The translations under genes were made by a program, and so were the position numbers. From Phragmitibacter flavus (GTDB lineage Bacteria > Verrucomicrobiota > Verrucomicrobiia > Verrucomicrobiales > Verrucomicrobiaceae): DNA of 49,234 nt. The stretch is from contig NZ_VAUV01000027.1 in the NCBI RefSeq assembly GCF_005780165.1, positions 1 through 49,234 of the forward strand. Direction: 5' to 3'. Shown piece by piece: positions 146 through 19,992 of this stretch. The stretch's first letter is position 1. Each line of letters begins with the position of its first letter. A model generated the notes under the pieces. That model was not told where the DNA came from, made no database searches, and was given only the letters and a program-made list of their open reading frames with translations.

Positions 146-898
146 CTACTTCAACTTTGCCAGCGCATCACGACCACGCACTTTGGTCTCCCCATCATCT
201 TTCTCCTGATTAGGCATCGCCAACCCCTTTTCCAGATTACTGATCGCCTCCGCTTTACGCCCCATTTGCGCATAAGTTCGCCCCAGTTCCACGTAATGAA
301 TCAACCGATTCGGATTCAGCGCAATCGCCTTCTTAAAACATCTTTCCGCCTCTTCCAGAGACGCATCGGGAATTCCACCGTAAACTAGAGTCGCAATCCC
401 CCGCACCATGCCGCCGACATCCGACAGCGCCAAATGCCAGCGCCCCAGCATGTGCCACGCGTAATCATTCGATGGATCCAGTTTTGTTGCCTTCTCCGCT
501 GATTGTTTGATTACCCTCGACGCCTCCACCTTCTCCTTGCTTCCCAACAGCGGGGTCAACTTCCCCCAACAAACCGCCACAGACAAATAACTGTTCGCCA
601 TGTCAGGCGCGAGCTTGACCGCCCTTTCCGAATAACTCAAAGCCACTCGTCCAGACTCCACCTTCTCGGCCTTCGATCCCAATCCATCCATTCGGAACAC
701 ATACTGCCGCGCAATCTTGATCAACAAGGACGCGTCATTGGGGTTCAGCTTTTCGGCAGGGAGATAATACTTCAGCGCTTCGTCCGACTTGAACGTCACG
801 TCATATTCGTCGCCCTTCGCCACCAGATCATCAAACTCCGCGCCGAAAGCGATCCCACCCAACATCAAAGCCATCAACCCACCCATCAATCGTTTCAT
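146..898 (-). CDS. Exported TPR-repeat protein (RMD-like)
   Basis: This 250-residue protein starts with a signal peptide (Lys-Arg, a hydrophobic stretch, then a likely cleavage after GIAFGA). The rest is tetratricopeptide helices. Clear repeat signatures are the ALSYSERAVKLAPDMANSY, AEKATKLDPSNDYAWHMLG and CFKKAIALNPNRLIHYVELG segments. The arrangement resembles the family annotated as regulator of microtubule dynamics, which is widespread in bacteria despite its name. Only 12 bases separate it from the stop of the upstream methyltransferase, so it is probably the last gene of the seven-gene lipid operon. A scaffold role in the periplasm is inferred. No catalytic residues are visible. Confidence 0.85.
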   Translation of the reverse strand: MKRLMGGLMALMLGGIAFGAEFDDLVAKGDEYDVTFKSDEALKYYLPAEKLNPNDASLLIKIARQYVFRMDGLGSKAEKVESGRVALSYSERAVKLAPDMANSYLSVAVCWGKLTPLLGSKEKVEASRVIKQSAEKATKLDPSNDYAWHMLGRWHLALSDVGGMVRGIATLVYGGIPDASLEEAERCFKKAIALNPNRLIHYVELGRTYAQMGRKAEAISNLEKGLAMPNQEKDDGETKVRGRDALAKLK

Positions 899-910
899 AA
901 AATAAGAGAC

Positions 911-1954
911 TTAGCTTAAAGGTTTCACAAACCGGTAGTGCGACACCAGCCACTCCTCACCTTCCCGAAATCCCCACAACTCAGCACAGGCCAGAAAGAA
1001 CAACCGCCACCAGGCCCACCACTTGGTCACTTGATCGGCCCCATAGGTCTCGGCAAACAATCCCCGAATCTCTTCCTTGTGCGAATCCATGTTGGACAGC
1101 CAGGCTTCAGAAGTCCGACTGTAATGCGTGCCATTGACCCGCCAATGCTCCTCAATCTTCAAATCATCCTGAAACTGCAGCAATAAATCATCCGACGGCA
1201 TCTGCCCACCTGTAAAAAAATACTTGGCCATCCAGTCATTCTCATTCTGCGCTTCAAAATGATAGGAACAATCCCTGTGCGTGAAGATATGCACAAACAA
1301 CTTCCCACCCGGCTTCAACCACGTCGACACCCGATGCAGCAACTCCTGGTAGTTCTTCATGTGCTCAAACATCTCCACGCTCACCACCCGGTCAAACACC
1401 CCCGCCCCCTCCCCTTCATAATGCACCATGTTGGCTGTCCGAATGGTCAAATTCTTCAACCCGCGTTTCGCCGCCTCACCATCAATGAACTCCTTTTGAG
1501 TTCTTGAATTCGAAACCGAGGTAATCTTCGAGTTGGGATAATGCTCCGCCATCCACAAAGAAAGCGATCCCCAGCCACATCCCAGCTCCAGGATGTTCAT
1601 CCCGTCGACCAGCTCCGCCCGCTCGCAGGTCATGCCCAGCATGATCGCCTCCGACTCATCAAACGTCGTGTCCGCCTTCGGCCAGTAACCCGAGCTGTAT
1701 TTCAAATGCTTGCCCAGCACCAATTGATAAAACTTCGTCGGCACTTCATAGTGCTGCTCATTTGCCTCATCCGTCGCAATGGCCAGGGGACTCTGCTTTA
1801 AACCTTCCACATGCTGCCTCAATGCTTCCCGCCTCCCCTGCTCGTCAGGCCGACGATGTTTGCGCAAGGTGTTGTCCAGCCTCCGACGAATTCCAAAACG
1901 AAGCAACGGGTCAGGCAAAATATCTTTCGCAAGAAGAGTATTGGTGATGTTCAT
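911..1954 (-). CDS. CFA-synthase-family SAM methyltransferase (coclaurine N-methyltransferase-like)
   Basis: This 347-residue protein is a class I SAM-dependent methyltransferase of the cyclopropane-fatty-acyl-phospholipid synthase superfamily. The SAM-binding motif I is [13 protein letters not shown]. The family entry motif [11 protein letters not shown] precedes it. The C-terminal half ([42 protein letters not shown]) matches my memory of plant coclaurine N-methyltransferases more than canonical Cfa. Bacterial proteins of this branch commonly sit beside DUF1295 and CFA genes. It differs strongly from the Cfa at 3134-4432, so the operon holds two methyltransferases that probably act on different substrates or successive steps. 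The ATG has no clear Shine-Dalgarno sequence. Substrate unknown. Confidence 0.88.
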
Positions 1955-2002
1955 GATAACGATTTGATAAATCTAAACTGGTCTGATCTGATCTGTTTTA
2001 AA

Positions 2003-2812
2003 TTAGTGGGATGCCTTTGACTTTCTCGGCCACGGAATGAATGCGCTGGTCGTGCGTTGATACTCCCGATAGGCCTCCCCCTTGCTTTCCACGGAACATT
2101 TTTCCGTCAATGGAATCCCCGTCACTCGCAGCAGGAAATAGAGAATCAACGCCGGTGCAAAAATCGTCACCCACCCCCAGGGCGATCCGCAGGAAAACAG
2201 CCAGAAACCCACCCACGTCACAAACTCAAAAAAGTAGTTCGGATGCCGCGACCATTTCCACAGTCCTTCCTGACAGACCTTGCCTTTGTTCGCCGGATTC
2301 GACTTGAACCTGCCCATCTGCGCATCCGACATCGCCTCGCCAACAATTCCCGACAACCACACACCAAACCCCACCCACTCAATCCAGTGAATCGACGGAC
2401 TGCCATTCAAACAAGCCAGCAACAACGGCACCGATAACAACACCAACAGCAACGCCTGGGCCTCAAAAAAGATAAAAAACTTGCCCGCCAAATTGCCCTT
2501 CCATTTTTGTCTCAACACCTCATATCTCACGTCCTCATGCGGATGATGTTTGGAAATCCGGATCAACAGATAACTCCCCAGTCTAAGTCCCCACACCCCC
2601 GCCATCACCATGGCCATCCCACGTCTCGACGAATTCCCCGCCCCCAACCAGACATAAATGACCACCACCAACGGCAGGCTGTAAGCCCACATCGCGTCCA
2701 CGAAACTGAAGTTGTTCAACTTCAAGCTCACCAGCCAGGTCAGCGCAAACAACCCAAAGGCCATCAATGCCCCGAGACCGAGCAATTGCCAAAAATGGTA
2801 GTCAGCGGCCAT
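2003..2812 (-). CDS. DUF1295 integral membrane protein (steroid 5-alpha-reductase fold)
   Basis: A 269-residue polytopic membrane protein with several hydrophobic helices. It carries the hallmark C-terminal motif of DUF1295 and the related isoprenylcysteine methyltransferase and steroid-reductase families (GLWKWSRHPNYFFEFVTWVG). The start chosen (MAADYHFWQL, 2812) overlaps the upstream stop by 11 bases. A longer frame to 2854 would add a Cys-rich, non-hydrophobic leader and overlap more, so it is less likely. Family members are predicted NAD(P)H-linked reductases or methyltransferases acting on membrane lipids. Its position between CFA-type genes suggests reduction of a lipid intermediate, but that is inference. 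Confidence 0.88.
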   Translation of the reverse strand: MAADYHFWQLLGLGALMAFGLFALTWLVSLKLNNFSFVDAMWAYSLPLVVVIYVWLGAGNSSRRGMAMVMAGVWGLRLGSYLLIRISKHHPHEDVRYEVLRQKWKGNLAGKFFIFFEAQALLLVLLSVPLLLACLNGSPSIHWIEWVGFGVWLSGIVGEAMSDAQMGRFKSNPANKGKVCQEGLWKWSRHPNYFFEFVTWVGFWLFSCGSPWGWVTIFAPALILYFLLRVTGIPLTEKCSVESKGEAYREYQRTTSAFIPWPRKSKASH

Positions 2813-3137
2813 GACGCAACAACACGGTTTCGAGTTTCGCATCGGCTGGCACACGGAACAATTGGATCAACGCATAAATCGCCATCGCAATGTTGCCCAA
2901 CAACAGCACGCCGATCAACCAGCCAATTCTAGATAGCGCGGATGTCTCTTTGTAGAAGATCCACACATAAAAGGTAAGGAAACCCCAGTAGGCATCGAAC
3001 AAGGTGGCGATGAACCACGGATGCCCGCCCACCGATGCTGGAATTTTCCAAAGCGGCACTTGCGTGCTCGCCCACCCCGTCACTGCGAACATTGACAGCA
3101 ACACGACAATAAAAAAGATTCTTAGAATAATGATCAT
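2802..3137 (-). CDS. DUF2834 small membrane protein
   Basis: A 111-residue protein with about three transmembrane helices and the DUF2834 core (FDAYWGFLTFYVWIFYKE). The start ATG (3137) overlaps the TGA of the upstream cfa gene as ATGA, which implies translational coupling. DUF2834 proteins often accompany DUF1295 and CFA-like genes, and their biochemical role is not established. In this operon the protein may act as a membrane partner of the reductase or methyltransferase. It is unlikely to be an enzyme on its own, since no polar catalytic cluster is evident. Confidence 0.85.
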   Translation of the reverse strand: MIIILRIFFIVVLLSMFAVTGWASTQVPLWKIPASVGGHPWFIATLFDAYWGFLTFYVWIFYKETSALSRIGWLIGVLLLGNIAMAIYALIQLFRVPADAKLETVLLRHGR

Positions 3138-4432
3138 GACCAGGATGAAATCGCATTTCGGCTCAACGCCGCGTTGTTCGGATGTTTGTAAACTGCCTGC
3201 ACCACTGAAATATTTCCCGTCTCGAATGCCGCTTCACAATACTTGAGGTAGTAGTTCCACTTGCGCACAAATCGCTCGTCAAAGCCCAGCGCCCTCACCT
3301 CATCGATCCTCGCATTGAACCGCTCATGCCATAATTGCAGCGTTTTCGCATAAGAGGGTCCGAAATCGTCCAGCGCATGCATAAACAAACCGCTGCTGCG
3401 ATTCACCGCCTCATTGATGCGCGCGATGCTCAACAACAATGAACCCGGGAAGATATGCTTTTGAATCCAATCGACCCCCTTCAACAACTGCTTAAAGTTT
3501 CCATCCGGTGTGGTGATCACCTGAAACCCCAGCAGTCCCTCAGGTTTCAACACCTCCGCACATTTCCGAAAGTATCCGTCCACAAAATCATTGCCCACCG
3601 CCTCGAGCATTTCAATCGAAGCAATCTTGTCAAATTGGCCGGTGATGTGCCGGTAATCCTGAAGTCGTATCTCCACCCGATCCGAAAGCCCCTCCTTCGC
3701 CATGCGCTCGGTGGCAAATTTGTGTTGCTCCTGCGAGATGGTTACGGCGGTCACGCGGCAACCATATCGCGAAGCCGCGTGGGAACTGAATCCCCCCCAA
3801 CCGCAGCCGATCTCCAACACATGGTCGCCGGGCTTTAGTTCCAGTTTCCGGCACAACGCATCATACTTGGCCGATTGCGCTTCTTCCAAACTTTGATCGT
3901 CCGATTCAAATCTGGCGGATGAATAAGTCATCGTCTTATCAAGCCACAACGAATAAAAATCGTTCCCCAGGTCATAGTGTTCCGCGATGTTCCGGCGACT
4001 CATTGATACGCTGTTTGGCCTGAGAAGATGCCGCCATCGATTGACCATCTTCAATAGATTGACCAAAGGAATCTGATTGGAGGATCTTTTCAATCCCGGG
4101 GTCCTGGCAATATTGGTGATGAACCATGAGACCACCGCTGCGATGTCATCCGTCTCCCAGTCCCCTTCCGTGTAACCCTCGCCAAAGCCGATGTTTCCAT
4201 ACAACGCACACCGTTTGAAGAAACTCATCGAACGAATACGCATCTCCGCCTGCACCTCGGCTGAGGGTGACCCCATTTGATGAACCCTGCCATCCGGCAA
4301 CTCCATGCGCAGTCCACCATGCTCAAACTTTCTCAACGTCCGCATCACCATGGTTTCGTAAAAACCCGCCCTCCTCGCCACTGCCACAGGTGGAGACTGA
4401 TCCGTTTTATCAAGTGCTACAGCAGTATTCAT
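3134..4432 (-). CDS. cfa: Cyclopropane-fatty-acyl-phospholipid synthase
   Basis: This 432-residue enzyme has the canonical CFA architecture. An N-terminal lipid-binding domain (about 1-145) is followed by the motif EHYDLGNDFY (151-160), the SAM-binding loop VLEIGCGWGG (205-214) and a C-terminal half with IASIEMLEAVGNDF and GLLGFQVITTPDG. Cfa transfers the methylene of SAM to the cis double bond of unsaturated acyl chains already in phospholipids, at the inner face of the membrane. It lies three bases after the DUF1365 stop and overlaps DUF2834 by ATGA, so it sits mid-operon. A relative that makes a methylated unsaturated product rather than a cyclopropane ring cannot be excluded, since homologues of that kind exist in furan fatty acid pathways. 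Confidence 0.93.
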   Translation of the reverse strand: MNTAVALDKTDQSPPVAVARRAGFYETMVMRTLRKFEHGGLRMELPDGRVHQMGSPSAEVQAEMRIRSMSFFKRCALYGNIGFGEGYTEGDWETDDIAAVVSWFITNIARTPGLKRSSNQIPLVNLLKMVNRWRHLLRPNSVSMSRRNIAEHYDLGNDFYSLWLDKTMTYSSARFESDDQSLEEAQSAKYDALCRKLELKPGDHVLEIGCGWGGFSSHAASRYGCRVTAVTISQEQHKFATERMAKEGLSDRVEIRLQDYRHITGQFDKIASIEMLEAVGNDFVDGYFRKCAEVLKPEGLLGFQVITTPDGNFKQLLKGVDWIQKHIFPGSLLLSIARINEAVNRSSGLFMHALDDFGPSYAKTLQLWHERFNARIDEVRALGFDERFVRKWNYYLKYCEAAFETGNISVVQAVYKHPNNAALSRNAISSWS

Positions 4433-4435
4433 GAT

Positions 4436-5236
4436 TTATGATTTCGATGAAGTAAGAGAATGATGAGGGCGAAGCACGCCCTGCTGGTGTTCTGGGTGAT
4501 CCGCTTTTCGATGCAAGGGAAGCTTCTTCATCCAGAGGCGCAACGCATGCCAGTGAATCAGAAAGATCACCCTCAGCGTCAACAAAGGGTATTTCACCGC
4601 ACATGCCAGCAGTGCACCATCCGTCAGCGGGCGCCGTTTGCCCGTCAAGGTCGTCAACAACACCCGGTCGCCTTGATCACGGTCATCAATATGTATTTCG
4701 AGACCCTCATCTGGAACTTTAAGTTTGAAATCGAAGCAAAGATCCAACGGGGAAAACGGCGAGACATAAAAGTGCTTCGGGGTCATCAACCTGAATCTCC
4801 CCTCCGCATCATGCTCGCGCAAAACAAAAGGTTTCTGTTCGTGGAACGTGTTGGTCACCTCGGCAAGGGCATGCAATGGCTTGCCCGATTTGTCGAAAGT
4901 GTAATAAAAGCACACCGGATTGAAGATATAGCCAAACACCCGGGGGAAAGTCAGCAACCGGATCGACGCCACCTCACTGGTATCCACCTCGTTGTCTTCA
5001 AGATACTTCAAAATGCAGCGCTTGGTATCTCCCGCTCCATTGTCCAGATGATCTTGGTCATAAAAACCAAACAGATTCCACCGATTGCGACTAAGGAATT
5101 TCAACCGGTTGTTCAGCTTCGGGATTTCGTCCAGATCCAGCCACAAATAGAACACCTGATAACTGAAGCGATGCTGCTTCGGTTTCAGTCGGTGATGACT
5201 CACCTTGCATTCATAAATGGCGGACGTTTCCATCAT
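4436..5236 (-). CDS. DUF1365 domain protein
   Basis: This 266-residue protein matches DUF1365, a family found almost always between a flavin amine oxidase-like gene and a CFA synthase gene. Typical segments are YECKVSHHRLKPKQHRFSY at the N-terminus, VRLLTFPRVFGYIFNPVCFYY-like sequence mid-protein, and KHFYVSPFSPLDLCFDF. The ATG at 5236 overlaps the oxidoreductase TGA as ATGA. A second ATG follows at once, and an upstream in-frame ATG (5266) lies inside the neighbour. The conserved His, Phe and Tyr clusters suggest a lipid-binding or catalytic pocket, but no reaction is established for the family to my knowledge. Confidence 0.9.
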   Translation of the reverse strand: MMETSAIYECKVSHHRLKPKQHRFSYQVFYLWLDLDEIPKLNNRLKFLSRNRWNLFGFYDQDHLDNGAGDTKRCILKYLEDNEVDTSEVASIRLLTFPRVFGYIFNPVCFYYTFDKSGKPLHALAEVTNTFHEQKPFVLREHDAEGRFRLMTPKHFYVSPFSPLDLCFDFKLKVPDEGLEIHIDDRDQGDRVLLTTLTGKRRPLTDGALLACAVKYPLLTLRVIFLIHWHALRLWMKKLPLHRKADHPEHQQGVLRPHHSLTSSKS

Positions 5237-6519
5237 TCCCAAGGGTCCCTTCCCAGCAAATCCCAACTCAATTGCACCGCCGAAGAAAATGCATCTTCAT
5301 GAAAACCGTAGCGAAAGTAACTCCCGCAGAAATAAGTCCGCTGGTCACGGGACAAACGGTTGAGCTCCGGTAAATCCTTCTGCGCCGCAATCGCCTTGAG
5401 GTCAAACAGAGGGTGCTCATACTGAATGGTCTTGATCACTTTCTCGGGGGCTTTCGAATGATCGCCGTTGATCGACACAAAATAGTTCACCTTGTCTGAA
5501 ACTCCTTGCAGACAATTCATCCAATAATGCGTGCTGGGGATGACGGAATTTTTGCCGCCCGCCCCCGGTTCCAGGCGGTAGTTCCACGAGGCCCAGCAAC
5601 GCCGACTCTGCGGCATAAAACTCTCGTCAGTGTGCAGCGTCGCCACATTGGGCTGATACTTGAAACAGTCGAGCAGTTCATGCTCCATGTCCGTCGGATC
5701 AGCGAGCAGCTTCAAAGCCTGATCCGCATGACAGGCAAACACCACCTTGTCGAAAACCTCAACCGTTCCATCGCGCGCATGCACCTTCACGCCATCAGCG
5801 GTTCTCTCCACCCGTTGCGCAGGATTGTTCAACCGGATCGCGTCTTTGAACGGCACCATGATCTTCTTCACGTAAGACCTCGAACCATCGCACACGGTCC
5901 GCCAGGGATGCCTCGTTTTCATTCCGAGAAATCCATGATTGTGCCAGAATCTCATCAGCGTCACCGCAGGGAACTCCAGCATCTGCTCAGGCGGCGTCGA
6001 CCACACTGCCGATCCCATCGGGATGATGTAAAGGTTCAGAAAATCCTCTCCATACCCGCGCACCTTGGCGTATTCGCGCAAGGTCATGGTGGCATATTGA
6101 GGATCATCCAGTGCCTCCACCGTTTCCTGATTGAAGCGATTGATCTTCATCAAAAAGCGCCAGAAGCGCGGGTTGAACAAATTTCTCCGCTGCCCAAACA
6201 GGTGATTCAGATCAGCCCCGTTGTATTCAATCCCGGTAGGACAATGAGTTACACTGAAGGACATCGAAGTGGGTTTGGTCTCAACATCCAGCACCTTGAA
6301 CAGACGCGTGAGGTTTGGATACGTTACGTAGTTGAAAACCATGAACCCGGTGTCGACCGGCAACTGTCGACCGTCCTCCTCCACACATACCGTGTTGGTA
6401 TGGCCACCGATGTAATCGTTCTGCTCAAAGAGCGTCAGCTCATAGTCCCGATGCAGAAACCAGGCACTGCCCAGCCCCGCGACGCCGGTGCCGATGATGG
6501 CCAGTTTGGGTTTACTCAT
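5233..6519 (-). CDS. FAD-dependent oxidoreductase (amine oxidase/desaturase-like)
   Basis: A 428-residue flavoprotein opening with a dinucleotide-binding loop (LAIIGTGVAGLGSAWFL) and the FAD-ribose acidic residue in LTLFEQNDYIGGHTNTV, as in amine oxidases, phytoene desaturases and related enzymes. DKVVFACHADQALKLL is the second flavin-contact segment. The MSKPKL start is preferred because it directly precedes the Rossmann strand. The longer frame to 6582 adds an Arg-rich leader unlike the family. It is the first gene of the operon with DUF1365 and cfa. A dehydrogenation or isomerisation of phospholipid acyl chains is a reasonable inference. Confidence 0.9.
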   Translation of the reverse strand: MSKPKLAIIGTGVAGLGSAWFLHRDYELTLFEQNDYIGGHTNTVCVEEDGRQLPVDTGFMVFNYVTYPNLTRLFKVLDVETKPTSMSFSVTHCPTGIEYNGADLNHLFGQRRNLFNPRFWRFLMKINRFNQETVEALDDPQYATMTLREYAKVRGYGEDFLNLYIIPMGSAVWSTPPEQMLEFPAVTLMRFWHNHGFLGMKTRHPWRTVCDGSRSYVKKIMVPFKDAIRLNNPAQRVERTADGVKVHARDGTVEVFDKVVFACHADQALKLLADPTDMEHELLDCFKYQPNVATLHTDESFMPQSRRCWASWNYRLEPGAGGKNSVIPSTHYWMNCLQGVSDKVNYFVSINGDHSKAPEKVIKTIQYEHPLFDLKAIAAQKDLPELNRLSRDQRTYFCGSYFRYGFHEDAFSSAVQLSWDLLGRDPWE

Positions 6520-6848
6520 GCGTGGTGAAGGCTCCATGGGTCTCATCGTTCTTGCCAGATTGCGCCGGCCTCCTAAGCCCACCGCAAACCATGGTCAAAT
6601 CGCACTTTTTAACGTTATTCCTCACGCGGAATATTTCGACAGAGGACCCCAAATGGATTCATATTCACATCATATTAACGCTCATCTTCGCTGGAATGCC
6701 GTGCTTCCGGCGGAGAATGATTTAAGCTAAATTGATCAGCAATCAGCGGGCCATTCGTTCAGCTGTTCACAGCCTGTGCAGCCAAGGCGCTTCAATCCCC
6801 CGTTGTCAACATCATCTCACCTCAAACAACCGACCACCCTCAGCATTC
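6520..6848. other. Divergent intergenic region
   Basis: This 329-base gap separates the divergent lipid operon (minus) and the DUF4282 gene (plus). Both promoters should lie here. The part around 6595-6740 is AT-richer than its surroundings. I found no convincing -35/-10 pair, riboswitch or RNA gene, and the short frames in it look spurious. Confidence 0.5.
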
Positions 6849-7175
6849 ATGGACCCCATCGATCCACCACCTGTCGTTGAAAAAAATCCCGGCCTCACCT
6901 TGTTCGACGCCGTATTCGACCTGAGTTTTGCCACCCCCATCACCCCCAGGGTGGTCAAATGGCTCTACATCATCAGCATCGTCGCTGCCGGCCTCGTCGC
7001 CTTGAGCAAAATCCTCAGCGGCTTCTCCGCCGGCATCATGGCGGGTTTGGTCTCGCTATTCATCGCTCCCATCGTCTTCATTATCTACGTGCTGGTCGCC
7101 AGGGTCACCCTCGAAGTCGCCCTCGCGATTTTCCAGATGGCCGACTCCCTCAAGAAGATCGAACGCAACCGCTGA
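6849..7175 (+). CDS. DUF4282 small membrane protein
   Basis: A 108-residue protein with the DUF4282 pattern: an N-terminal segment LFDAVFDLSFATPITPRVV, then two hydrophobic helices (about 38-60 and 65-95) and a short charged tail ending KKIERNR. The ATG at 6849 gives MDPIDPPPVVEK. The longer frame from 6732 has a non-conserved leader and is not used. Function unknown; it is an inner-membrane protein of a family common in diverse bacteria. It is transcribed away from the lipid operon and is followed by a convergent protease gene. Confidence 0.82.
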   Translation: MDPIDPPPVVEKNPGLTLFDAVFDLSFATPITPRVVKWLYIISIVAAGLVALSKILSGFSAGIMAGLVSLFIAPIVFIIYVLVARVTLEVALAIFQMADSLKKIERNR

Positions 7176-7200: not shown

Positions 7201-8133
7201 TCACCGACGCCGGCGTCCCATCACCCATATCCCTAAACTGGTCAGACAAAACAACGCGCTGCCCGGTTCCGGCACCAACATGGCCTGGATGGTCGACCGA
7301 TTGGCGGTGAGATCGGACATCAGCATGTAACCGGTCGGATCAACCGACGGCACCCAGCTCGCCGTATCAAAGTCATACTCATACATTCCACTGGTGTCAT
7401 AGAGCGTTGCATAATATTCGCCTGGAACCAACGGGTCCTCGCGATAGGGCCCCAGCGTCGCCGCATAATTCATTCCAACAAGCTCCCATCGGCCATCGAC
7501 TGCATCATAAACAAAAACTCCGCCGCCCGAATCGCCCGGACTGAAACTCGCCTCGTTTGGACCGCCTGAATCATCAAAAGTGGACAGCAACATGGGCCCC
7601 ACGCCGGTTGGCAACAAGTCCTCAAGCTCATTGGTGCCCCAACGCTGCAAGAAATCGGAGGAACCCAACTCCCACCCCTTCGCGTCGCCCGCCACGATCA
7701 CCTCGTCGCCGCGAAACGCCCCCCGCCCCATCATCACCAATTCGTCCCCAGCACTCAACGCACCGTCATACAATGGCGCGTAATCCGCAAAGGTCCCGTC
7801 GGTCACCTGGAAAATTCGCAAGTCTGTGCCTGAGATGTCCTGATAATTCACAAAATCAACGGTGTAACTTTGACCATCATAAAAGAACCACGAGGAAAGC
7901 GGCAAATGGGCTGCCGTGATGAAGTGGGTGGGCGAAATGGCCGTCCCAAGTCCCTGCGCATAAATTCCCTGATACTGCCAGCCCGAATCTTCATAAATTC
8001 CCGTCGGCGCATCGGCATTGAACTCGGGTGTGTCCCCTCCATACAAAATCAGTGCCGAAGCGACACCCGGAAACATCGCCCCGAGCAAAGTGATCCACAC
8101 GACTGATCGAAAGCGGGTAAAGCACTTGTGCAT
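7201..8133 (-). CDS. Secreted trypsin-like serine protease with PEP-CTERM anchor
   Basis: This 310-residue exported protein begins with a signal peptide (MHKCFTRF, hydrophobic core, GVASA). It has the chymotrypsin-fold triad: His in ITAAHL, Asp in GTDLRIF and Ser in SPGDSGGGVF. The C-terminus is a PEP-CTERM sorting signal: VPEPG, a hydrophobic helix, then GRRRR. Such tails are recognised by exosortase in bacteria that make extracellular matrix. Start 8133 is chosen because AGAAAGG lies 10 bases upstream, the signal peptide begins there, and the longer frame (8196) would run into the neighbouring gene. The substrate is unknown. No exosortase gene is in the window. Confidence 0.9.
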   Translation of the reverse strand: MHKCFTRFRSVVWITLLGAMFPGVASALILYGGDTPEFNADAPTGIYEDSGWQYQGIYAQGLGTAISPTHFITAAHLPLSSWFFYDGQSYTVDFVNYQDISGTDLRIFQVTDGTFADYAPLYDGALSAGDELVMMGRGAFRGDEVIVAGDAKGWELGSSDFLQRWGTNELEDLLPTGVGPMLLSTFDDSGGPNEASFSPGDSGGGVFVYDAVDGRWELVGMNYAATLGPYREDPLVPGEYYATLYDTSGMYEYDFDTASWVPSVDPTGYMLMSDLTANRSTIQAMLVPEPGSALFCLTSLGIWVMGRRRR

Positions 8134-8143
8134 GGGGGGAAAA

Positions 8144-8150
8144 CCTTTCT
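8144..8150 (-). promoter_or_regulatory. Ribosome binding site of PEP-CTERM protease
   Basis: AGAAAGG on the minus strand, 10 bases before the ATG at 8133. It decides the start against a longer in-frame ATG at 8196. Confidence 0.6.
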
Positions 8151-8183
8151 CTATTAAATACTTGGATTCAGCGATTACGTCAA

Positions 8184-9167
8184 TCATCTCCACCAAAATT
8201 CCACCAGCACCGGTCGATGGTCGGAATCAAAATCCTCGCCCACTGACCAGTTCGCCCTCCCCCAGTCATCGCTGTAGAGCACGTGATCAATCATCATCTG
8301 CTGCGGCCACCCCACCCGCCATGTCGCGCTGAAGGGATGCCCTCTGCCCGCTTCCCGCAAACCCGTCGCCCTCACCAAATCGCGATAAAACACAGACCAC
8401 GGCGTGCTGTTGAAATCGCCCATCACGATCACCGCATGCCCCGCCGACCGCTTGTCCTTCACCCATTTCACGATCGCCTCGTGCCACGACTTCAATATCT
8501 CCACCTTCACCGTGTCAGTCGGATGCAAGGCATGCACCGTCAGCACACTCACCACCCTGCCACTCACCTCCAATTCTGCCGCCAGACCCATGGTGATCAA
8601 CACCGGTCCCAACACCACGCGCTCCACCCGTCTCCAAGGCACCCGGCTCACCAGTCCCAATCCATGATACCTCGTCACCGGCATTCCCAAGCTCCGATAC
8701 GGAAACCAATCTTTCCACAGCTCAATTTCCACCGCCCACTCCGCCCCCACCTCCTGCAACGCCACGACATCCGGCTGCCAAGGCTCCAGATCGCGACGAA
8801 GTTTTCCGTAATCCCGATCCGGCGGACCAAGCTGCAACAAGTTGATGGTCGCCACCTTGAACACCTCGTCAGATCTCCCACCCATCTGCCTCACGACCTC
8901 TCCCTTCTCCACCCCATAAGGCAGCACCACGATCGCATTAAGCCCGCAGGCAAGCCCCGCCATTACCGCCCATCGCCATTTCCTCTTCACCAAAAATATC
9001 GTCATCAACATCCCTGCACCGACCAGATACTGCGGCCGGCCATGCGCCAGCAAATCCAGCCACCAAAACCACCTGCCACCAAATGCTGCCAAACTCACTG
9101 CCAGGCACATCAGAGTGCCCAGCATCAATCCCACTCCCACTGATGCCCTTGGAAATTTTTTCCACAT
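8184..9167 (-). CDS. Endonuclease/exonuclease/phosphatase family protein, membrane-anchored
   Basis: About 327 residues. The N-terminus has three hydrophobic helices (about 1-90). A DNase I-like fold follows with the family motifs: metal-binding Glu in VVALQEVGAEW, VMGDFNSTPWS, MIDHVLYS and the catalytic SDHRPVLVEF near the end. Such proteins cleave phosphodiesters of nucleic acids or lipids, and membrane-anchored versions with an external domain are common. The ATG at 9167 follows GGAAGAGG closely; an in-frame ATG at 9182 is an alternative. It precedes the protease gene by about 50 bases on the same strand. The substrate cannot be told from sequence. Confidence 0.85.
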   Translation of the reverse strand: MWKKFPRASVGVGLMLGTLMCLAVSLAAFGGRWFWWLDLLAHGRPQYLVGAGMLMTIFLVKRKWRWAVMAGLACGLNAIVVLPYGVEKGEVVRQMGGRSDEVFKVATINLLQLGPPDRDYGKLRRDLEPWQPDVVALQEVGAEWAVEIELWKDWFPYRSLGMPVTRYHGLGLVSRVPWRRVERVVLGPVLITMGLAAELEVSGRVVSVLTVHALHPTDTVKVEILKSWHEAIVKWVKDKRSAGHAVIVMGDFNSTPWSVFYRDLVRATGLREAGRGHPFSATWRVGWPQQMMIDHVLYSDDWGRANWSVGEDFDSDHRPVLVEFWWR

Positions 9168-13786: not shown

Positions 13787-15214
13787 ATGTCACGTCTTCA
13801 AACCCTTCGCGAGGCCCTCACCCATGCTCCGGACAACACGGCCCTGCTGCTGTTGTATGGTCACGGGTGCCTGGATGAACTGCACCTGGATGAAGCCCTC
13901 GAGACCTTCGAACGCATCCTCACCCTTGAGTCCGACCACATCGAGGCGCAAATCTGCGCCGCCCGCGTCATGCTCCTCCAGGGTGACACCAGCGGGGCCG
14001 CCGTGCGCGCTGAGCGCATCCTGCAGCGCGATCCCGTCAACACCTCCGCCTATCTTCTCCTCAGTCGCATCCACATGATGGAGAACAACCGCGCCAAAGC
14101 GCTCGAGTTCTACAATCGCGCCATTGAGATCAACTCTTCCGCGACCGATCCCGCCCTTGAAGCCGACCTCGGTCGCACCCAGGGCAAACCTGCTTTGCGC
14201 GACCGCATCATCAGCACGCCCATCGACGTTTTCGAAGACGAAGACACCGGCGAACTCCAGCAGGAATTCTTCGACGATCCGTTTGAAGAGGCCCCGATCA
14301 GCGACTGGCGCCCCGAAACCTTCTTCGCCCCCGGCGACTCCGAGCGATTCCGCGTTACCTTCTCCGATGCCGGTGGCATGGAAGCCCTCAAGGAGGAAAT
14401 CCGTCTCAAAATCATCTATCCCCTCCAGCATCCCGAGCTCTACAAAGCCTACGGACGCAAAACCGGCGGCGGCATTCTCCTCTATGGCCCTCCCGGCTGC
14501 GGCAAAACCCTCCTTCTCCGCGCCACTGCGGGAGAAGTCTCCTGCAACTACTTCGCCGTGGGCATCCACGAAGTCTTCGATCCCTACTACGGCAGCATCG
14601 AACGCAACCTCCATCAAATCTTCGAAACCGCCCGCGCCAACTCCCCCTGCGTTTTGGTGTTCGACGAAATCGATTCCCTCGCCCCTGACCGCCGCACCGT
14701 CCGCGACACCCAGATGCGCAATGTCGTGAACCAGTTCCTCAGCGAACTCAACGGCCTGCGCAGCGACAACCATCGCATCCTCGTCATCGGCGCCACCAAC
14801 GCCCCCTGGCAGCTCGACCCCGCCCTGCGTCGCCCCGGTCGTTTCGATCAGGCCATCTTCGTGCCGCCACCCGACCACGCCGCGCGCATGGAAATCATCC
14901 GTCTGCTCGCCCGCGAAAAACCCCTGGCCAAATTCGACGACAACGCCCTTGCCGCCGCCACCGAAGGATTTTCCGGAGCCGACCTCCATTGGGTCTTCAA
15001 CCGCGCCGCCGAGCTTGCGTTGGCCGACGCCCTGCACGCCAAAAAGACCGTCCCCATCACCATGGAGCTCCTGCAAACCATCGCCAGAGAGCATGTCCCT
15101 TCTTCACAAGCCTGGATGGACGGCATGAAGCAGCACATCCCTGCCACCACGCAAGACGCCCTCTACAACGAGGTCAGAAAATTCATGCAACAAACCGCCT
15201 CCAAAAAGCCCTGA
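13787..15214 (+). CDS. TPR-AAA+ ATPase (Cdc48/SpoVK-like)
   Basis: About 475 residues. The N-terminal 130 are TPR-like helices (CLDELHLDEALETFERIL, AYLLLSRIHMMENNRAKALE). An acidic linker follows, then one AAA+ module: Walker A GPPGCGKT (about 234-241), Walker B VLVFDE (about 289-294), the second region of homology with GATNAPWQLDPALRRPGRFD and its arginine finger, and a C-terminal helical lid with GFSGADLHWVFNRAAE. Such proteins remodel or unfold partner proteins, and the TPR part probably selects the client. The start MSRLQTLREAL is preferred over an upstream in-frame ATG (13739). It lies alone between trpG/pabA and tRNA-Arg, so the client is unknown. Confidence 0.88.
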   Translation: MSRLQTLREALTHAPDNTALLLLYGHGCLDELHLDEALETFERILTLESDHIEAQICAARVMLLQGDTSGAAVRAERILQRDPVNTSAYLLLSRIHMMENNRAKALEFYNRAIEINSSATDPALEADLGRTQGKPALRDRIISTPIDVFEDEDTGELQQEFFDDPFEEAPISDWRPETFFAPGDSERFRVTFSDAGGMEALKEEIRLKIIYPLQHPELYKAYGRKTGGGILLYGPPGCGKTLLLRATAGEVSCNYFAVGIHEVFDPYYGSIERNLHQIFETARANSPCVLVFDEIDSLAPDRRTVRDTQMRNVVNQFLSELNGLRSDNHRILVIGATNAPWQLDPALRRPGRFDQAIFVPPPDHAARMEIIRLLAREKPLAKFDDNALAAATEGFSGADLHWVFNRAAELALADALHAKKTVPITMELLQTIAREHVPSSQAWMDGMKQHIPATTQDALYNEVRKFMQQTASKKP

Positions 15215-15226
15215 TTATAAGGAGCC

Positions 15227-15371
15227 CGGACATTCCTGTCCGCATCATCACCCGTGGAGCACCCCGATGTATCATCGGCCATCACTCATCCCTCCGAAAA
15301 ATTTCGGACCACCGACGTGTCTTCGGTCTGCACTCATCGTCCCAAACCTCGGACCACCGACGTGTCGTCGG
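15227..15371. repeat. Cluster of short hairpins (REP-like)
   Basis: Four hairpins lie between the AAA+ gene and tRNA-Arg: CGGACA/TGTCCG (15227-15242), CCGATG/CATCGG (15264-15278), CCGA/TCGG (15312-15326, imperfect) and CCGAC/GTCGG (15357-15371). The last two belong to a near-identical unit CGGACCACCGACGTGTC repeated about 45 bases apart. The first has a relative at 23731-23753 with the same flanks. None is followed by a T-run, so a simple terminator is unlikely. They look like dispersed REP/MITE-type repeats. Confidence 0.7.
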
Positions 15372-15487
15372 TCTCCACCCCCCATCAACCTCTGCCCCCT
15401 CCCCCAAATCCCCCCCAACTCAATCCACTTGCCATCCCCCCAACCTTGGCGTAACCATTCCCTCCCTGCGACGTCCGACGTCCAAAC

Positions 15488-15562
15488 GCACCCATAGTTC
15501 AATGGATAGAACTGCAGTTTCCGGAACTGCTGGTGTAGGTTCGATTCCTACTGGGTGCACCA
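15488..15562 (+). tRNA. tRNA-Arg (anticodon CCG)
   Basis: A complete cloverleaf of 75 bases. The acceptor stem is GCACCCA/TGGGTGC, and the D arm is GTTC/GAAC with loop AATGGATA. The anticodon stem GCAGT/ACTGC encloses the loop TTCCGGA (anticodon CCG, reading CGG). The T arm is GTAGG/CCTAC with TTCGATT, and the 3' end is an encoded ACCA. The DNA just beyond it changes to AT-richer accessory sequence, as expected for an integration target. Confidence 0.95.
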
Positions 15563-15883
15563 CCTCATAACGAGCTGGATATGAGCGAGTTACGCACCGA
15601 ATGGGTGCCGGAATGACCTGACCGCCAAAGTGGTCCAAGTTGCCAAAAGTGGCCCTGCTTTGCCAAATCTAGCCAAGAATCTGTCTACAATTTGTCTACG
15701 GAAACGGGGTGAGGGGTGGAGAAAAAATACTGGTTGCCGATCCTTATACGCGTTGACTCGGTGGCAGGGAAATATTGCAAAAGCAGAAAATCATCATGTG
15801 CGCCGCTGAACGTTGTTGCATTCCCACAAGTTCAAAGAATTATGGAATCGTAATTTTTCCTACCACTAGTTTAGCGAACAACT
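15563..15883. other. Gene-poor start of tRNA-associated island
   Basis: No convincing gene in 321 bases. Near-repeats are visible: GCCAAAGTGG and GCCAAAAGTGG, and two copies of GTCTAC a few bases apart (about 15680-15700). A GTG-started frame of 45 codons (15716-15853) is too short and unsupported to call. Sequence right after a tRNA 3' end often holds an attachment site, but no second copy of the tRNA end and no integrase gene were found. Confidence 0.4.
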
Positions 15884-16314
15884 ATGCAACTCATCAGCTA
15901 TAAAGACCTAAACGCTAAACAACAGGAAATTTACAATTTTCAAAAGGTTGCCGCTATCCTGGCTGACTACGGCTTCAACTGCATCAAGCTTGCTGATGAT
16001 TGGCAAGGGGTTGATTTCCTTGCCTACCACGTCAACGGCAATGACACTATATAAGAGTGCAACTCAAGGGCCGACTGAGTATTGATCGCAAATATGTAGG
16101 AAAGAATCTACACATGGCTTTCCCCTACTTCGGCACTTGGTATTTGGTAGAACACGATCATTTGGTGACTGTGGTCGCCTTGCACACCAATTGGCTCAAC
16201 ACATTCTCTTGGACTGACCGTGGATTATACAATTCCCTTGCACCGAGTCGTCGGCTTATGACCGCTCTTGAAGAATTCCGGCTGACGTCATCAACGACAA
16301 GCAATCAGTTATAG
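15884..16314 (+). pseudogene. Frameshifted gene for a conserved island protein
   Basis: The first frame (15884-16054) encodes MQLISYKDLNAKQQEIYNF onward and ends at a TAA just after NGNDTI. The continuation RVQLKGRLSIDRKYVGKN lies in another frame and runs to 16314. At the junction the sequence is ACTATATAAGAG. Removing one TA dinucleotide restores ACTATAAGAG and one open frame of 143 codons including the stop. I recall similar intact proteins (YKDLN at the start, DDWQG mid-protein, VQLKGR, then FP and WYL) in many mobile islands, with no known function. The simplest reading is recent inactivation by a 2-base slip in the TA repeat. Confidence 0.7.
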
Positions 16315-16335
16315 GGCAAATGAATGCTGAAGCAT

Positions 16336-16545
16336 TCAATGATTCATTGATCCACAGCGGCTCAAGATTATTATTATTCCTAGGACACCGATAATACCGC
16401 AAGTCCATTGCGCAATGTTCAAAAAAACGTCTGAGGCTGTCTCCCCAACTTCCCGAACTTTTTTTTGCGTAAGAGTTTCCTGATCACGTTTAGAAACTCT
16501 TGCCTCATCATCTCTTTTTTTTTGCGTTAATAGCACGCTCCTCAT
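16336..16545 (-). CDS. Small membrane protein, hypothetical
   Basis: A 69-residue protein. The N-terminal half is strongly charged, with LTQKK occurring twice (VLLTQKKRDD and ETLTQKKVRE). A single transmembrane helix near the C-terminus (WTCGIIGVLGIIIILSRCG) suggests C-terminal membrane insertion. It overlaps the end of the 90-residue ORF upstream by 38 bases, suggesting coupled expression. Not recognised. It may be the last gene of a small minus-strand unit headed by the nuclease-like gene. Confidence 0.45.
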   Translation of the reverse strand: MRSVLLTQKKRDDEARVSKRDQETLTQKKVREVGETASDVFLNIAQWTCGIIGVLGIIIILSRCGSMNH

Positions 16546-16780
16546 GATAGCTCTGATTACGCAGATGAATCAGACCAACATAATCTGGAAGTCGATTTTT
16601 TGAATATTGGATAGCGCCGACGGCAGACAAATATCGAGAGGATGCCTTCCACTCCTTGGTGTGAGAGCGTTTGTTTTTCTTTGCATCAGCCTTTCTCTGA
16701 AAACGTGTCCATCCCTCACTAAACCAAGCGGCCTTGGCGAGTTCATCTAGCTGCATCTGGCGTTTAATCGACACATCCAC
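16508..16780 (-). CDS. Small basic protein, hypothetical
   Basis: A 90-residue Lys/Arg-rich protein with a GTG start at 16780; an internal ATG at 16756 is an alternative. It contains KADAKKNKRSHTKEWKASSR and ends INAKKKR, and no membrane segment is visible. The basic composition would fit nucleic-acid binding, but there is no motif to prove it. It lies between the nuclease-like gene and the small membrane protein on the same strand. Not recognised. Confidence 0.45.
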   Translation of the reverse strand: MDVSIKRQMQLDELAKAAWFSEGWTRFQRKADAKKNKRSHTKEWKASSRYLSAVGAIQYSKNRLPDYVGLIHLRNQSYHEERAINAKKKR

Positions 16781-16890
16781 AGATTCAAATTAGCCCAATG
16801 CGCAGAATCGTCAAGCGCCGCAAACTCGTCCACCACCGAGAACGAAGTGTTTACTATGCCTTTTGAGATGCTCCCAGTCGAAGGAGTTGT

Positions 16891-17529
16891 TCATAATTCT
16901 GAGCCGTTCGCGAAACATTTCGCTATTGCTAATTTCCTTTTCTCTACTCTGACATCATCAATCGCTTCGACGGCAACCCCTAATTTATAGCCAAACCCAT
17001 CGCATGTTGCCTTCGTGAACGTCTTCAATTTCAACTCATCGTATTCCCTGATTTCAGGATTACTCCGCTTTTTTAACTCAATAACTAGGCAATTGTCGGC
17101 GTCATCACCACGTCTGTGGACTACAATATCTGGGGCGACAGAAATCATGCCATATTCTTCAGTGTTTGACTCAATCATTTTACGTTTAGCTTTTTCCACA
17201 ATATCACTCAGCTCATGAGGAATTCGTTGGGTTTTGACATTATCAAGATGCCGATTGTATTCACAATCAACAGCAAGACTTGATCCTCTTCCAACAAGCC
17301 CTTGTCTGATCAGCACTTGTTCAAGGTATATGGCCAATCTATGTGCAATTGCGCGTTCACTCGCTGCCCCCCATGCGCGATGTGTTTTATTAACATCTAC
17401 GCCATTAACCTTTCGCGGGCACAAAAGGGTGTTTTTATCTTTCCTGTTGAACAAGAAAACGGCCTTCTGAACACAAGACCTCCAAAATTTTTGCTCGTCG
17501 GAATAGTTAATAAACAATTGCGGGTTCAT
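16891..17529 (-). CDS. PD-(D/E)XK nuclease-like protein, hypothetical
   Basis: A 212-residue protein with a likely PD-(D/E)XK nuclease core: Glu58 in AASERAIAHRL (first helix), Pro133-Asp134 in SVAPDIVVHRR, then Glu151-Leu-Lys153 in LVIELKKRSNPE about 17 residues later. The spacing and the surrounding strands fit restriction-endonuclease-fold enzymes. A DNA-cleaving role is inferred. It is transcribed divergently from the TIR gene, with 76 bases between the two starts, so shared control is likely. Base composition is AT-richer than the flanking core genes, which fits horizontal acquisition. Confidence 0.65.
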   Translation of the reverse strand: MNPQLFINYSDEQKFWRSCVQKAVFLFNRKDKNTLLCPRKVNGVDVNKTHRAWGAASERAIAHRLAIYLEQVLIRQGLVGRGSSLAVDCEYNRHLDNVKTQRIPHELSDIVEKAKRKMIESNTEEYGMISVAPDIVVHRRGDDADNCLVIELKKRSNPEIREYDELKLKTFTKATCDGFGYKLGVAVEAIDDVRVEKRKLAIAKCFANGSEL

Positions 17530-17605
17530 GGTCGTATTTTACTTTGTTCAAGTGATTCTCAATGCGATTCTGTAGACAGTCTCTTTTTTTCTCTAAGTAA
17601 ATTAT

Positions 17606-18730
17606 ATGAGTTCCGTTTTCATTTCGCACGCCACTGAGGATAAAGATGCAGTTGCCAGACCCCTCGCAAAAGCTCTCAAGGATCGCGGTTATGACGTTTG
17701 GTATGACGAATATAGTTTAAAACTCGGTGACAGCCTAAGACGGAGAATCGATGAGGGCTTGGCTCAGTGCTCTTTCGGAATCGTGGTCCTAAGCAAAGCA
17801 TTTTTCTCAAAGGAGTGGCCGAAGAAAGAATTGGATGCGCTTAATGCACGTGAGACCCACCAAAGTCAGAAGATTATCCTTCCTGTTTGGCATAGTGTGA
17901 CAGCCAACGAAATTGCCGGATTTTCTCCAATGCTAGCGGATCGACTGGGCGTGTCCACCTCAGATGGACTAGGTCCTGTGATCCAGCAAATTGTCGATGT
18001 TATTGGATCGCCCGATCAGCCAGGAATCGAGGCTCAGGACGAAGACAATGCAATTTTCAGTTTTAAAGAACGAAATCTTCGTCAGTGGCAAGAGTTCCTA
18101 GGTGAAATCTTTCCACAAGGTAAGCCAGCATCTGCCGCGTGGCACAACATTGAAGACATTGTTTCAATTCTTCAAAAATTGTCATCACCAAACCTTAATC
18201 ACAGTTTTTTCCCAGAAGGTGGAGGGCAAGACTTATCTGGCTGCAAAAAGTCCCTAGAAGCGGATTGTATTGAACTTTTGTGGGGACACAACTATGCATC
18301 AATCGTAAAACCATCGTCTCTGAGTTTTGAAAGCTTTCTGAATGCGCCGAGTCTTTCCTACTTTCGCCTAGATCTCAAATTCCTGAAGCCATGGTCGGAT
18401 GGAATCGATTTAACAGAGTATCAGTCCGAAGAACTCGCGGAGCTTTTCCCAATGGAATATCACAACAGAAATGTTTTTGATGCAGGGTATTATGACCACG
18501 ACGAGAGCGGAAATGAAATTCGCATTCCAGAAGGATCTAGAGTGATTACTCGGCACTTCAGCGGGAGTTTTGTCATCTTTGCCAAAGGCAGTTATTACAA
18601 TTCCGCGAGTGGGGAACTCGATGCCTATCGCGCTCGGCACAATAAGATGACTGCAATTCAATTCAAGCAATACATCTCAGCCATGATTGAGGCAGCATCA
18701 AGAGCCGGGTTTGACTTAGAAAAAGATTAG
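17606..18730 (+). CDS. TIR-domain protein with uncharacterised C-terminal domain
   Basis: A 374-residue protein. Residues 1-135 form a TIR domain: SSVFISHATEDKD (box 1), GYDVWYDEYSLKLGDSL (BB-loop region), FGIVVLSKAFFSKEWPKKEL with the Glu (E75) that acts as NADase catalytic residue in active TIRs, and KIILPVWHSV. Residues about 150-374 form a second, soluble domain that I do not recognise, with W/F-rich motifs and a conserved-looking HFSGSFVIFAKGSYYN segment. Bacterial TIR proteins often deplete NAD+ or make cyclic ADP-ribose signals in antiphage defence. Here that role is inferred from the intact TIR motifs and the island setting beside a nuclease-like gene. Confidence 0.88.
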   Translation: MSSVFISHATEDKDAVARPLAKALKDRGYDVWYDEYSLKLGDSLRRRIDEGLAQCSFGIVVLSKAFFSKEWPKKELDALNARETHQSQKIILPVWHSVTANEIAGFSPMLADRLGVSTSDGLGPVIQQIVDVIGSPDQPGIEAQDEDNAIFSFKERNLRQWQEFLGEIFPQGKPASAAWHNIEDIVSILQKLSSPNLNHSFFPEGGGQDLSGCKKSLEADCIELLWGHNYASIVKPSSLSFESFLNAPSLSYFRLDLKFLKPWSDGIDLTEYQSEELAELFPMEYHNRNVFDAGYYDHDESGNEIRIPEGSRVITRHFSGSFVIFAKGSYYNSASGELDAYRARHNKMTAIQFKQYISAMIEAASRAGFDLEKD

Positions 18731-18742
18731 CGGAAACTTTCG

Positions 18743-18773
18743 GGCGGTTCACACTCCCTTTTGAAAAACCGCC
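18743..18773 (+). terminator. Inverted repeat after TIR gene, possible terminator
   Basis: GGCGGTT (18743-18749) pairs with AACCGCC (18767-18773) just after the TIR stop codon. There is no downstream T-run, so intrinsic termination is uncertain. Confidence 0.3.
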
Positions 18774-18836
18774 ACAGCCAACCAGCAAACAGGCTGATCA
18801 ACTGTGACGGCATCCGACATCCCCAAAGCCGAGGGG

Positions 18837-18900
18837 TAATTCAATGTGTCTGTCCCTTAATAATATGTCCTTCATTTAATTCAATGTGTCTGTCCCTTAA
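18837..18900. repeat. Pair of 24-bp direct repeats upstream of RAYT gene
   Basis: Positions 18837-18860 and 18877-18900 are identical 24-base sequences containing TCAATGTGTCTGTCCC, spaced 40 bases start to start. They lie 46 bases before the transposase start. REP-associated transposase genes are often bordered by short repeats, so these may be recognition or scar sequences. Sequence identity is directly visible; the role is inferred. Confidence 0.8.
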
Positions 18901-18945
18901 AAAAAATTCGCTTGCATCCGAATTTCGTCTCATTACACTCCTCCT

Positions 18946-19992
18946 ATGCGGCGATCCAGACTCAAGGCTCCTAAGGATTGGGAGGTGGCCTACTACCACT
19001 GCGTTTCGCGTGTGGTTGATCGGCAGTTTGTGCTGGGAGATGAGGAAAAGGCGGAGTTCGTTTCGCTCATGCGGCTATACGAACGGGTTTGTCAGGTGCG
19101 AGTGGTCACTTATTGCCTCATGTCCAATCACTTCCATATGCTCGTTGAGGTGCCGAAGCGACCGGACGCTGGCATGTCTGAAGCAGATCTTCTAAACCTG
19201 ATTGCGGGCTGCCATGGAAAATCACGGGCGCTCCTGGTGGCGGAACATATCCGGCAGTTTCGCGCGGCGGGGGCGCATGAGGCGGCACAGAAGGTGATCG
19301 ATGAGTGGCTGACAAGGATGTGGGACATCAGCCAGTTCATGAAGACACTGAAACAACGCTTCACTCAATGGTATAACAAGCGGCACGGCCGCAGAGGAAC
19401 GCTGTGGGAGGATCGTTATCGCAGCACGCTCGTGGAGGGTGATTTGAATGCGCTGGCGATGGTGGGGGCCTATATTGATTTGAACCCGGTGCGCGCCGCC
19501 TTGGTGAAGGATCCGAAGGACTACCGCTGGTGCGGATATGGGGCCGCCGTGGCAGGAGTGAAGGTGGCGGTGCGCGGGATTGAAACATTGATGAAACGCG
19601 CGGACAAGACGCCGCCGAAAGGGGTGAAGGCGCTGGCGCTGTATCGGATGGCGGTGTATGGAGCGGCGGATACCGGAGATGCGAAATCTCGCATGATTCA
19701 ATCGAGATTGGGCAGGGGCGCGAAAGGCAACCGGCGTGGATTTGTTCGCAAGGAAGTCGAAATGGAACGTGAGCGGAAAGGATGTTTGACCCGGGCTGAG
19801 ATGCTGCGGTGTCGGGTCAGGTATTTTGTTGATGGAGCGGTGATTGGGAGTCGTGGATTTGTAGATCGTGTGTTCGAGGGGCAACGTGACCGCTTTGGAA
19901 CAAAGAGGGTGGATGGGGCGAGGCTGATGCGCGGAGCTGATTTCGGCGGTTTATGCGCCATGCGGGATCTTCGCAAAGCGGTCTTTGGCTGA
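18946..19992 (+). CDS. REP-associated tyrosine transposase (Y1_Tnp, IS200-like)
   Basis: A 348-residue protein of the RAYT/IS200-like Y1 family. It starts with the typical YYHCVSRVVDRQFVLG. The HUH motif is in MSNHFHMLVEVP, the catalytic Tyr is in LKQRFTQWYNKRHGRRG, and TLWEDRYRSTLVEG and GAYIDLNPVRAALVKDP are family signatures. The C-terminal 130 residues are Arg/Lys-rich. RAYTs nick single-stranded REP sequences and are mostly domesticated single-copy genes. It is GC-richer than the neighbouring island genes, so it may have a separate history. Two 24-bp direct repeats precede it, and it ends just before the core esterase gene. Confidence 0.92.
   Translation: MRRSRLKAPKDWEVAYYHCVSRVVDRQFVLGDEEKAEFVSLMRLYERVCQVRVVTYCLMSNHFHMLVEVPKRPDAGMSEADLLNLIAGCHGKSRALLVAEHIRQFRAAGAHEAAQKVIDEWLTRMWDISQFMKTLKQRFTQWYNKRHGRRGTLWEDRYRSTLVEGDLNALAMVGAYIDLNPVRAALVKDPKDYRWCGYGAAVAGVKVAVRGIETLMKRADKTPPKGVKALALYRMAVYGAADTGDAKSRMIQSRLGRGAKGNRRGFVRKEVEMERERKGCLTRAEMLRCRVRYFVDGAVIGSRGFVDRVFEGQRDRFGTKRVDGARLMRGADFGGLCAMRDLRKAVFG

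Follow-up and report, generated by a model that had tools for sequence, protein, structure and literature searches.

A putative operon of Phragmitibacter flavus with counterparts of the furan fatty acid enzymes and a conserved DUF1295 partner

Furan fatty acids act as antioxidants in membranes and may serve as signals; the enzymes of their synthesis are understood in only a few bacteria. A group of genes that would belong to this chemistry is described here from Phragmitibacter flavus (Verrucomicrobiota; assembly GCF_005780165.1), where it occupies positions 146 to 6519 of contig NZ_VAUV01000027.1. The whole stretch that was analysed, 49,234 nucleotides (nt) of the forward strand, is referred to as the window. 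The seven genes form a putative operon that, to judge from the predicted proteins, probably converts phospholipid acyl chains into methyl-furan fatty acids.

Organization of the gene cluster

Seven open reading frames follow one another on the minus strand from 6519 down to 146. Gene 1 (5233..6519, ATG at 6519; 428 amino acids, aa) encodes a predicted UfaD-like flavin-dependent acyl desaturase, gene 2 (4436..5236; 266 aa) a predicted UfaO-like DUF1365 oxygenase and gene 3 (3134..4432; 432 aa) a predicted UfaM-like acyl methyltransferase dependent on S-adenosylmethionine. These are followed by a small DUF1475-like protein of 111 aa (gene 4, 2802..3137), a 269-aa DUF1295 membrane protein predicted to be a reductase-like partner of the pathway (gene 5, 2003..2812), a predicted FufM-like methyltransferase of 347 aa (gene 6, 911..1954) and a 250-aa tetratricopeptide repeat (TPR) protein with a signal-like segment at its N terminus (gene 7, 146..898).

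Genes 1 and 2 share an ATGA overlap at 5236-5233 and genes 3 and 4 another at 3137-3134. Gene 2 is separated from gene 3 by 3 nt, genes 4 and 5 overlap by 11 nt, and the gaps between genes 5 and 6 and between genes 6 and 7 are 48 and 12 nt respectively. Seven genes packed with ATGA overlaps or short gaps had been described in the first-pass annotation of this DNA, and all were found to be present, open and on one strand; the DUF2834 label given there to gene 4 was not upheld, its sole Pfam match being DUF1475 (PF07343, 31.0 bits). The cluster of seven genes exists as described, is compact, and is conserved in relatives.

The probable promoter region (6520..6848) separates gene 1 from a divergent DUF4282 gene, the start of which was taken as the ATG at 6849. 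A promoter consensus scan was near chance (7 found, 5.0 expected), with no motif identified in 6520..6848, and alignments of the window with four family members and of six other loci revealed no clear conserved promoter upstream of gene 1. In some loci the aligned region includes the last part of a desaturase gene. Terminator-like sites numbered 13 against 7.4 expected (standard deviation 2.8), six of them on the operon strand, all inside genes 1, 3 and 5.

Counterparts of the furan fatty acid enzymes

In the furan fatty acid pathway of Rhodopseudomonas palustris and R. sphaeroides, UfaM methylates phospholipid acyl chains, UfaD desaturates them, UfaO, a DUF1365 protein, introduces an oxygen derived from O2, and a second methyl group is supplied by FufM (PMC7380195). 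The R. palustris genes ufaD-ufaO-ufaM are RPA2571-2570-2569 and fufM is RPA0924; RPA2569-2571 are enough for an R. sphaeroides triple mutant to make the monomethyl furan, and the dimethyl form comes from FufM (PMC7380195). An RPA0923 deletion strain of R. palustris also appears in the strain and plasmid list of that study. Four Rhodopseudomonas genomes and Bradyrhizobium BTAi1 served as the alphaproteobacterial comparison set. In all five, a DUF1365 gene is flanked by a strong CMAS gene on one side and a flavin gene on the other, in the ufaD-ufaO-ufaM order that the window shares with R. palustris, and a second, FufM-like CMAS gene adjoins a DUF1295 gene.

Gene 1 contains the Pfam domains Amino_oxidase (70.3 bits) and NAD_binding_8 with a GxGxxG motif near the N terminus, and is 38-40% identical to the protein at the UfaD position in each of the five genomes; its nearest solved relative is LkcE (126 bits). 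Gene 2 is a member of the DUF1365 family (260.6 bits), and a sequence search of the PDB returned no credible relative of it. Gene 3 is a CMAS family protein (301.8 bits), with E. coli Cfa as its closest relative of solved structure. It is 43-44% identical to the proteins at the UfaM position, against 35% to the Cfa-type paralogues of two alphaproteobacterial genomes and 31% to that of one more, two of the five genomes contributing no paralogue to this comparison.

Gene 6 (CMAS, 144.6 bits) is 48-49% identical to the proteins at the FufM position. Its best solved relatives are plant coclaurine and pavine N-methyltransferases, with coclaurine N-methyltransferase 6gkv at 263 bits and 5kn4 at 239 bits, while E. 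coli Cfa scores 97 bits; the first-pass annotation had called this second methyltransferase coclaurine-methyltransferase-like. Unlike the plant N-methyltransferases, which act on alkaloids, gene 6 is situated in a putative lipid operon and close in sequence to the FufM position.

A quick IQ-TREE phylogeny of 86 CMAS proteins placed gene 3 inside a 46-row UfaM clade (Shimodaira-Hasegawa-like approximate likelihood ratio test, SH-aLRT, 99), with E. coli Cfa and three alphaproteobacterial Cfa-type proteins outside it. Gene 6 fell inside a 36-row FufM clade (SH-aLRT 100) together with the five alphaproteobacterial FufM rows. The two groups also differ at the positions E239/H240/H266/I268/Y317 of E. 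coli Cfa, among which H240 was added in this analysis. The combination EAQIY is found in 41 of 41 gene 3 rows of the phylum (window included) and in 5/5 alphaproteobacterial UfaM rows, EHHIY in E. coli Cfa and the three Cfa-type rows (3/3), and EHHFY in 31 of 31 gene 6 rows of the phylum and 5/5 alphaproteobacterial FufM rows. The roles of C139, E239, H266, I268 and Y317 in Cfa have been described (PMC3132707). At this bicarbonate site gene 3 reads S, E, Q, I and Y, so the site is not matched: E239, I268 and Y317 are retained as in Cfa, whereas C139 is replaced by S and H266 by Q, with H240 replaced by A next to the site. No typical Cfa was found elsewhere in the genome, in which only genes 3 and 6 match CMAS above 30 bits and three other proteins reach at most 29.9 bits.

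Conservation in Verrucomicrobiota

In a sample of 240 Verrucomicrobiota genomes, 53 contain DUF1365, that of the window included. The surroundings in the 52 relatives were searched with the seven window proteins, giving 53 loci with the window; some fetched regions end at contig ends, which shortens them, so the layout counts are minima. Genes 1-6 occur co-oriented and in identical order in 14 of the 53 loci (window included), and in 10 of those 14 gene 7 is present as well. Gene 7 is found in 10 loci altogether, the window among them, and in all 10 it is placed after gene 6. Other layouts are 1-2-3 (12 loci), 6-1-2 (8 loci), 5-6-1-2-3 (5 loci) and rarer ones, and in 9 of the 53 loci the UfaO and UfaM counterparts occupy a single open frame. 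In locus L053 (genome G018), the UfaD counterpart appears as two reading frames, whether by frameshift, decay or assembly error, and no UfaM counterpart was found within the 18-kb region.

A gene 4 counterpart is present in 16 of the 53 loci, window included. Eleven of the 14 relatives having both genes 4 and 5 carry a DUF2062-like gene between them (identified by Pfam in three of the 11); the window, L037, L053 and L066 have no such gene there. In 12 of the 53 loci a fatty acid desaturase gene, confirmed by Pfam in L037, is situated directly upstream of gene 1 on the same strand and within 300 bp. The genome of the window has a single desaturase match, located away from the cluster.

The DUF1295 protein and other partner genes

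The furan pathway itself is already known from other bacteria; the less expected lead is the conserved partners, above all DUF1295. Strong DUF1295 matches (at least 140 bits, a threshold that leaves out 11 further genomes in which all matches are weaker) occur in 48 of the 240 phylum genomes, against 42 for FufM and 53 for DUF1365. DUF1365 is present in all 42 FufM genomes and in 47 of the 48 DUF1295 genomes, and among the 53 DUF1365 genomes six have no strong DUF1295 and 11 no FufM, a co-occurrence for which shared ancestry inflates the Fisher values, which are therefore given no weight here. DUF1295 lies on the same strand within 1.5 kb of FufM in 28 genomes and within 1.5 kb of UfaM in 15 further ones (L042, L043, L079, L081, L085 and 10 of 20 extra regions), which places it beside one or the other methyltransferase in 43 of the 48 genomes. 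In the remaining five, G116, G124 and G220 have neither methyltransferase in 12 kb, G121 falls outside the fetched regions, and G155 has FufM about 1.5 kb from DUF1295 on the opposite strand. Of 240 alphaproteobacterial genomes, 8 contain FufM, counting the centre G242, and 117 contain DUF1365. Seven of those eight FufM genomes contain DUF1365, and seven have DUF1295 within the fetched region, directly adjacent in five. Gene 5 is 34-36% identical to the DUF1295 protein beside the alphaproteobacterial FufM.

Exposure of a furan to reactive oxygen gives an enedione, and an enone or enedione reductase would suit both this oxidised-furan chemistry and the fold family of DUF1295. A tentative assignment is that DUF1295 is a membrane reductase dependent on reduced nicotinamide adenine dinucleotide phosphate, whose substrate would be some unsaturated or oxidised pathway product, such as the enedione that arises when the furan traps reactive oxygen. 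Beside its DUF1295 match (233 bits), gene 5 has weak Pfam matches to Steroid_dh (34.3 bits), ICMT (22.7 bits) and PEMT (22.2 bits). In a weakly scoring alignment with the 5-alpha-reductase SRD5A2, the invariant D163 and N192 of DUF1295 fall on a D and an N of the reductase. The proposal that DUF1295 is instead a third methyltransferase, of the ICMT or PEMT kind, appears unlikely. It draws on a search of the PDB with a DUF1295 profile of 29 sequences, in which isoprenylcysteine methyltransferase (27.2 bits) came before SRD5A2 (19.7 bits) and delta-14 sterol reductase (14.9 bits), all of them weak matches; the Pfam ranking, with Steroid_dh ahead of ICMT and PEMT, and the aligned D and N would favour the reductase instead. 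In vitro, FufM made in a cell-free system transferred a methyl group to the furan, with wheat germ extract present (PMC7380195), so DUF1295 is seemingly not needed for the FufM step.

A wider proposal of similarly tentative standing is that DUF1295 is a dedicated fifth furan fatty acid enzyme, which would reduce an intermediate or the enedione and whose conservation would reach from Verrucomicrobiota and Alphaproteobacteria as far as green algae. No relative turned up when viral contigs were scanned with the DUF1295 alignment, and a literature search, outside which most subscription papers fall, found no paper joining furan fatty acids and DUF1295.

Genes 4, 5 and 7 are conserved neighbours and candidate partners of the pathway. 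Two relatives of gene 4 match PF07343 at 40.8 and 33.3 bits, and gene 4 aligns with the C-terminal half of DUF1475. DUF1475 is a plant family, and gene 4 might be another part shared with plants. Gene 7 matches TPR families of Pfam, with RMD1-3 at 40.8 bits.

Proposed pathway

A cis-monounsaturated chain, probably from the one desaturase detected in the host, would be the starting point; its gene is encoded elsewhere in this genome and adjoins the cluster in relatives. By analogy with the reactions in PMC7380195, gene 3 (UfaM) would methylate the chain to a methyl-branched trans-alkene, gene 1 (UfaD) would use its flavin to desaturate this to a conjugated methyl-diene, gene 2 (UfaO) would insert an O2-derived oxygen and close the furan, and gene 6 (FufM) would add the second ring methyl. 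Such a pathway would probably yield mono- and dimethyl-furan fatty acids in phospholipids. The furan lipid had been raised as a possibility in the first-pass annotation, and it gains support from the closest counterparts of UfaD, UfaO, UfaM and FufM, the R. palustris gene order and the DUF1295-FufM pair of the five alphaproteobacterial genomes; that related alphaproteobacterial gene sets make furan acids with these four proteins, as stated there, agrees with PMC7380195. On the most plausible reading, the cluster forms a full set for mono- and dimethyl-furan acids and joins counterparts of all four known enzyme types in one putative operon.

It resembles the R. palustris and R. sphaeroides system (PMC7380195) in having counterparts of all four enzymes, the ufaD-ufaO-ufaM order and DUF1295 beside FufM. 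It differs in belonging to another phylum, in joining in one putative operon what lies there at separate loci, in the added DUF1475-like and TPR genes and in the ChrR gene, which was not found here. In Arabidopsis, AtUFAMD1, AtUFAO1 and AtFUFM1/LIME1 correspond by description to UfaM plus UfaD, the DUF1365 protein and the FufM-like methyltransferase; this eukaryotic system differs in that UfaM and UfaD are one protein, located at lipid droplets, and LIME1 was named AtFUFM1 with 37.87% identity to FufM (PMC10940516). Table 5 of PMC4067076 lists CFA1, CFA2, DUF1365 and DUF1295, among many others, as SAK1-dependent singlet-oxygen genes of the alga Chlamydomonas, and a later table labels the CFA2 gene coclaurine N-methyltransferase. 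This eukaryotic list shares the gene types of the window as far as annotation goes.

Several observations weigh against a furan product. The identity of gene 2 to the UfaO position is just 32-36%, and this value, like the other identities, was measured against congeners of R. palustris CGA009 and not against the CGA009 proteins. Single-sequence AlphaFold models were too weak to help, with a mean predicted local distance difference test score of 39.7 for gene 2 and 50.6 for gene 5. In the quick tree, long branches lead to E. coli Cfa, to L222 (a Cfa-type row from Alphaproteobacteria) and to the FufM group, so that their joins may be false. The furan genes of R. sphaeroides belong to the sigma-E/ChrR singlet-oxygen regulon (PMC6852236); no ChrR anti-sigma gene was found in the genome of P. 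flavus, which has a single Cupin_7 match, to a 121-aa protein that stands alone and lacks an anti-sigma part (other sensors were not sought), so that control other than by ChrR is likely. Halomonas ufaM in E. coli gave 11-methyl-octadec-12-enoate, a precedent in favour of the furan reading, and the same strain also contained cyclic acids, E. coli having its own cfa (PMC12089945). For a Luteolibacter species, the fatty acids given in the part of PMC11427321 consulted include no furan acid, which carries no information on P. flavus. The signature of gene 3 is itself compatible with cyclopropanation, because cotton CPS1, with C139S and H266Q, makes cyclopropane acids in yeast (PMC3132707).

Alternative products

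The last point belongs to an improbable alternative, in which gene 3 is a cyclopropane synthase (CPS), the flavin protein has just a supporting part, like its equivalent in the two-domain enzymes of plants, and the products are cyclopropane or cyclopropene acids. The strong CMAS match of gene 3, with Cfa as nearest solved structure, would fit this, but identity and tree both bring gene 3 nearer to the UfaM position than to the Cfa-type paralogues. To our knowledge, neither DUF1365 nor FufM has a role in any cyclopropane pathway. Plant CPS enzymes pair an oxidase and a methyltransferase in the same way, but an Agrobacterium oxidase/CPS pair, 802 bp apart, gave no cyclopropane acid in yeast (PMC3132707); our own reading is that the 802-bp gap would hold a DUF1365 gene.

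More improbable still is a pathway that ends before the furan and adjusts membrane fluidity with a methyl-branched unsaturated or saturated acid, namely what UfaM makes, perhaps after reduction by DUF1295. In its favour, DUF1295 stands near UfaM and not FufM in the 15 genomes mentioned, is weakly similar to steroid 5-alpha-reductases, and in L252 (genome G143) is found together with desaturase and UfaM counterparts in a genome without a DUF1365 match, which may make the methylated alkene only, but DUF1365 accompanies all other DUF1295 genomes and the window has intact UfaD and UfaO counterparts.

Other features of the window

Within 15001-19992, a stretch of lower G+C content (0.47 at 15001-18000) precedes a gene at 17606-18730 whose beginning resembles a TIR domain and another at 18946-19992 that resembles a REP-type transposase. 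A trypsin-like protein at 7201-8196 carries a C-terminal PEP-CTERM-like segment that scores 16.6 bits, below the cut-off. In the whole assembly (G000), 22 stretches on many contigs match the Verru_Chthon_A model, as against none in 14 control genomes; the name of this model points to Verrucomicrobiota, so that the sequence alone makes this phylum very probable for the host.

Significance

The furan fatty acid pathway would be extended to another phylum, and one putative operon with counterparts of all four enzymes would allow reconstruction in a compact system. DUF1295, DUF1475, DUF2062 and TPR proteins are the candidates to which the hunt for missing partners is narrowed. If the reductase assignment is true, reduction by DUF1295 would detoxify or recycle a membrane antioxidant. 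Because the Chlamydomonas singlet-oxygen list has matching gene types, the bacterial answer may carry over to algae and plants.

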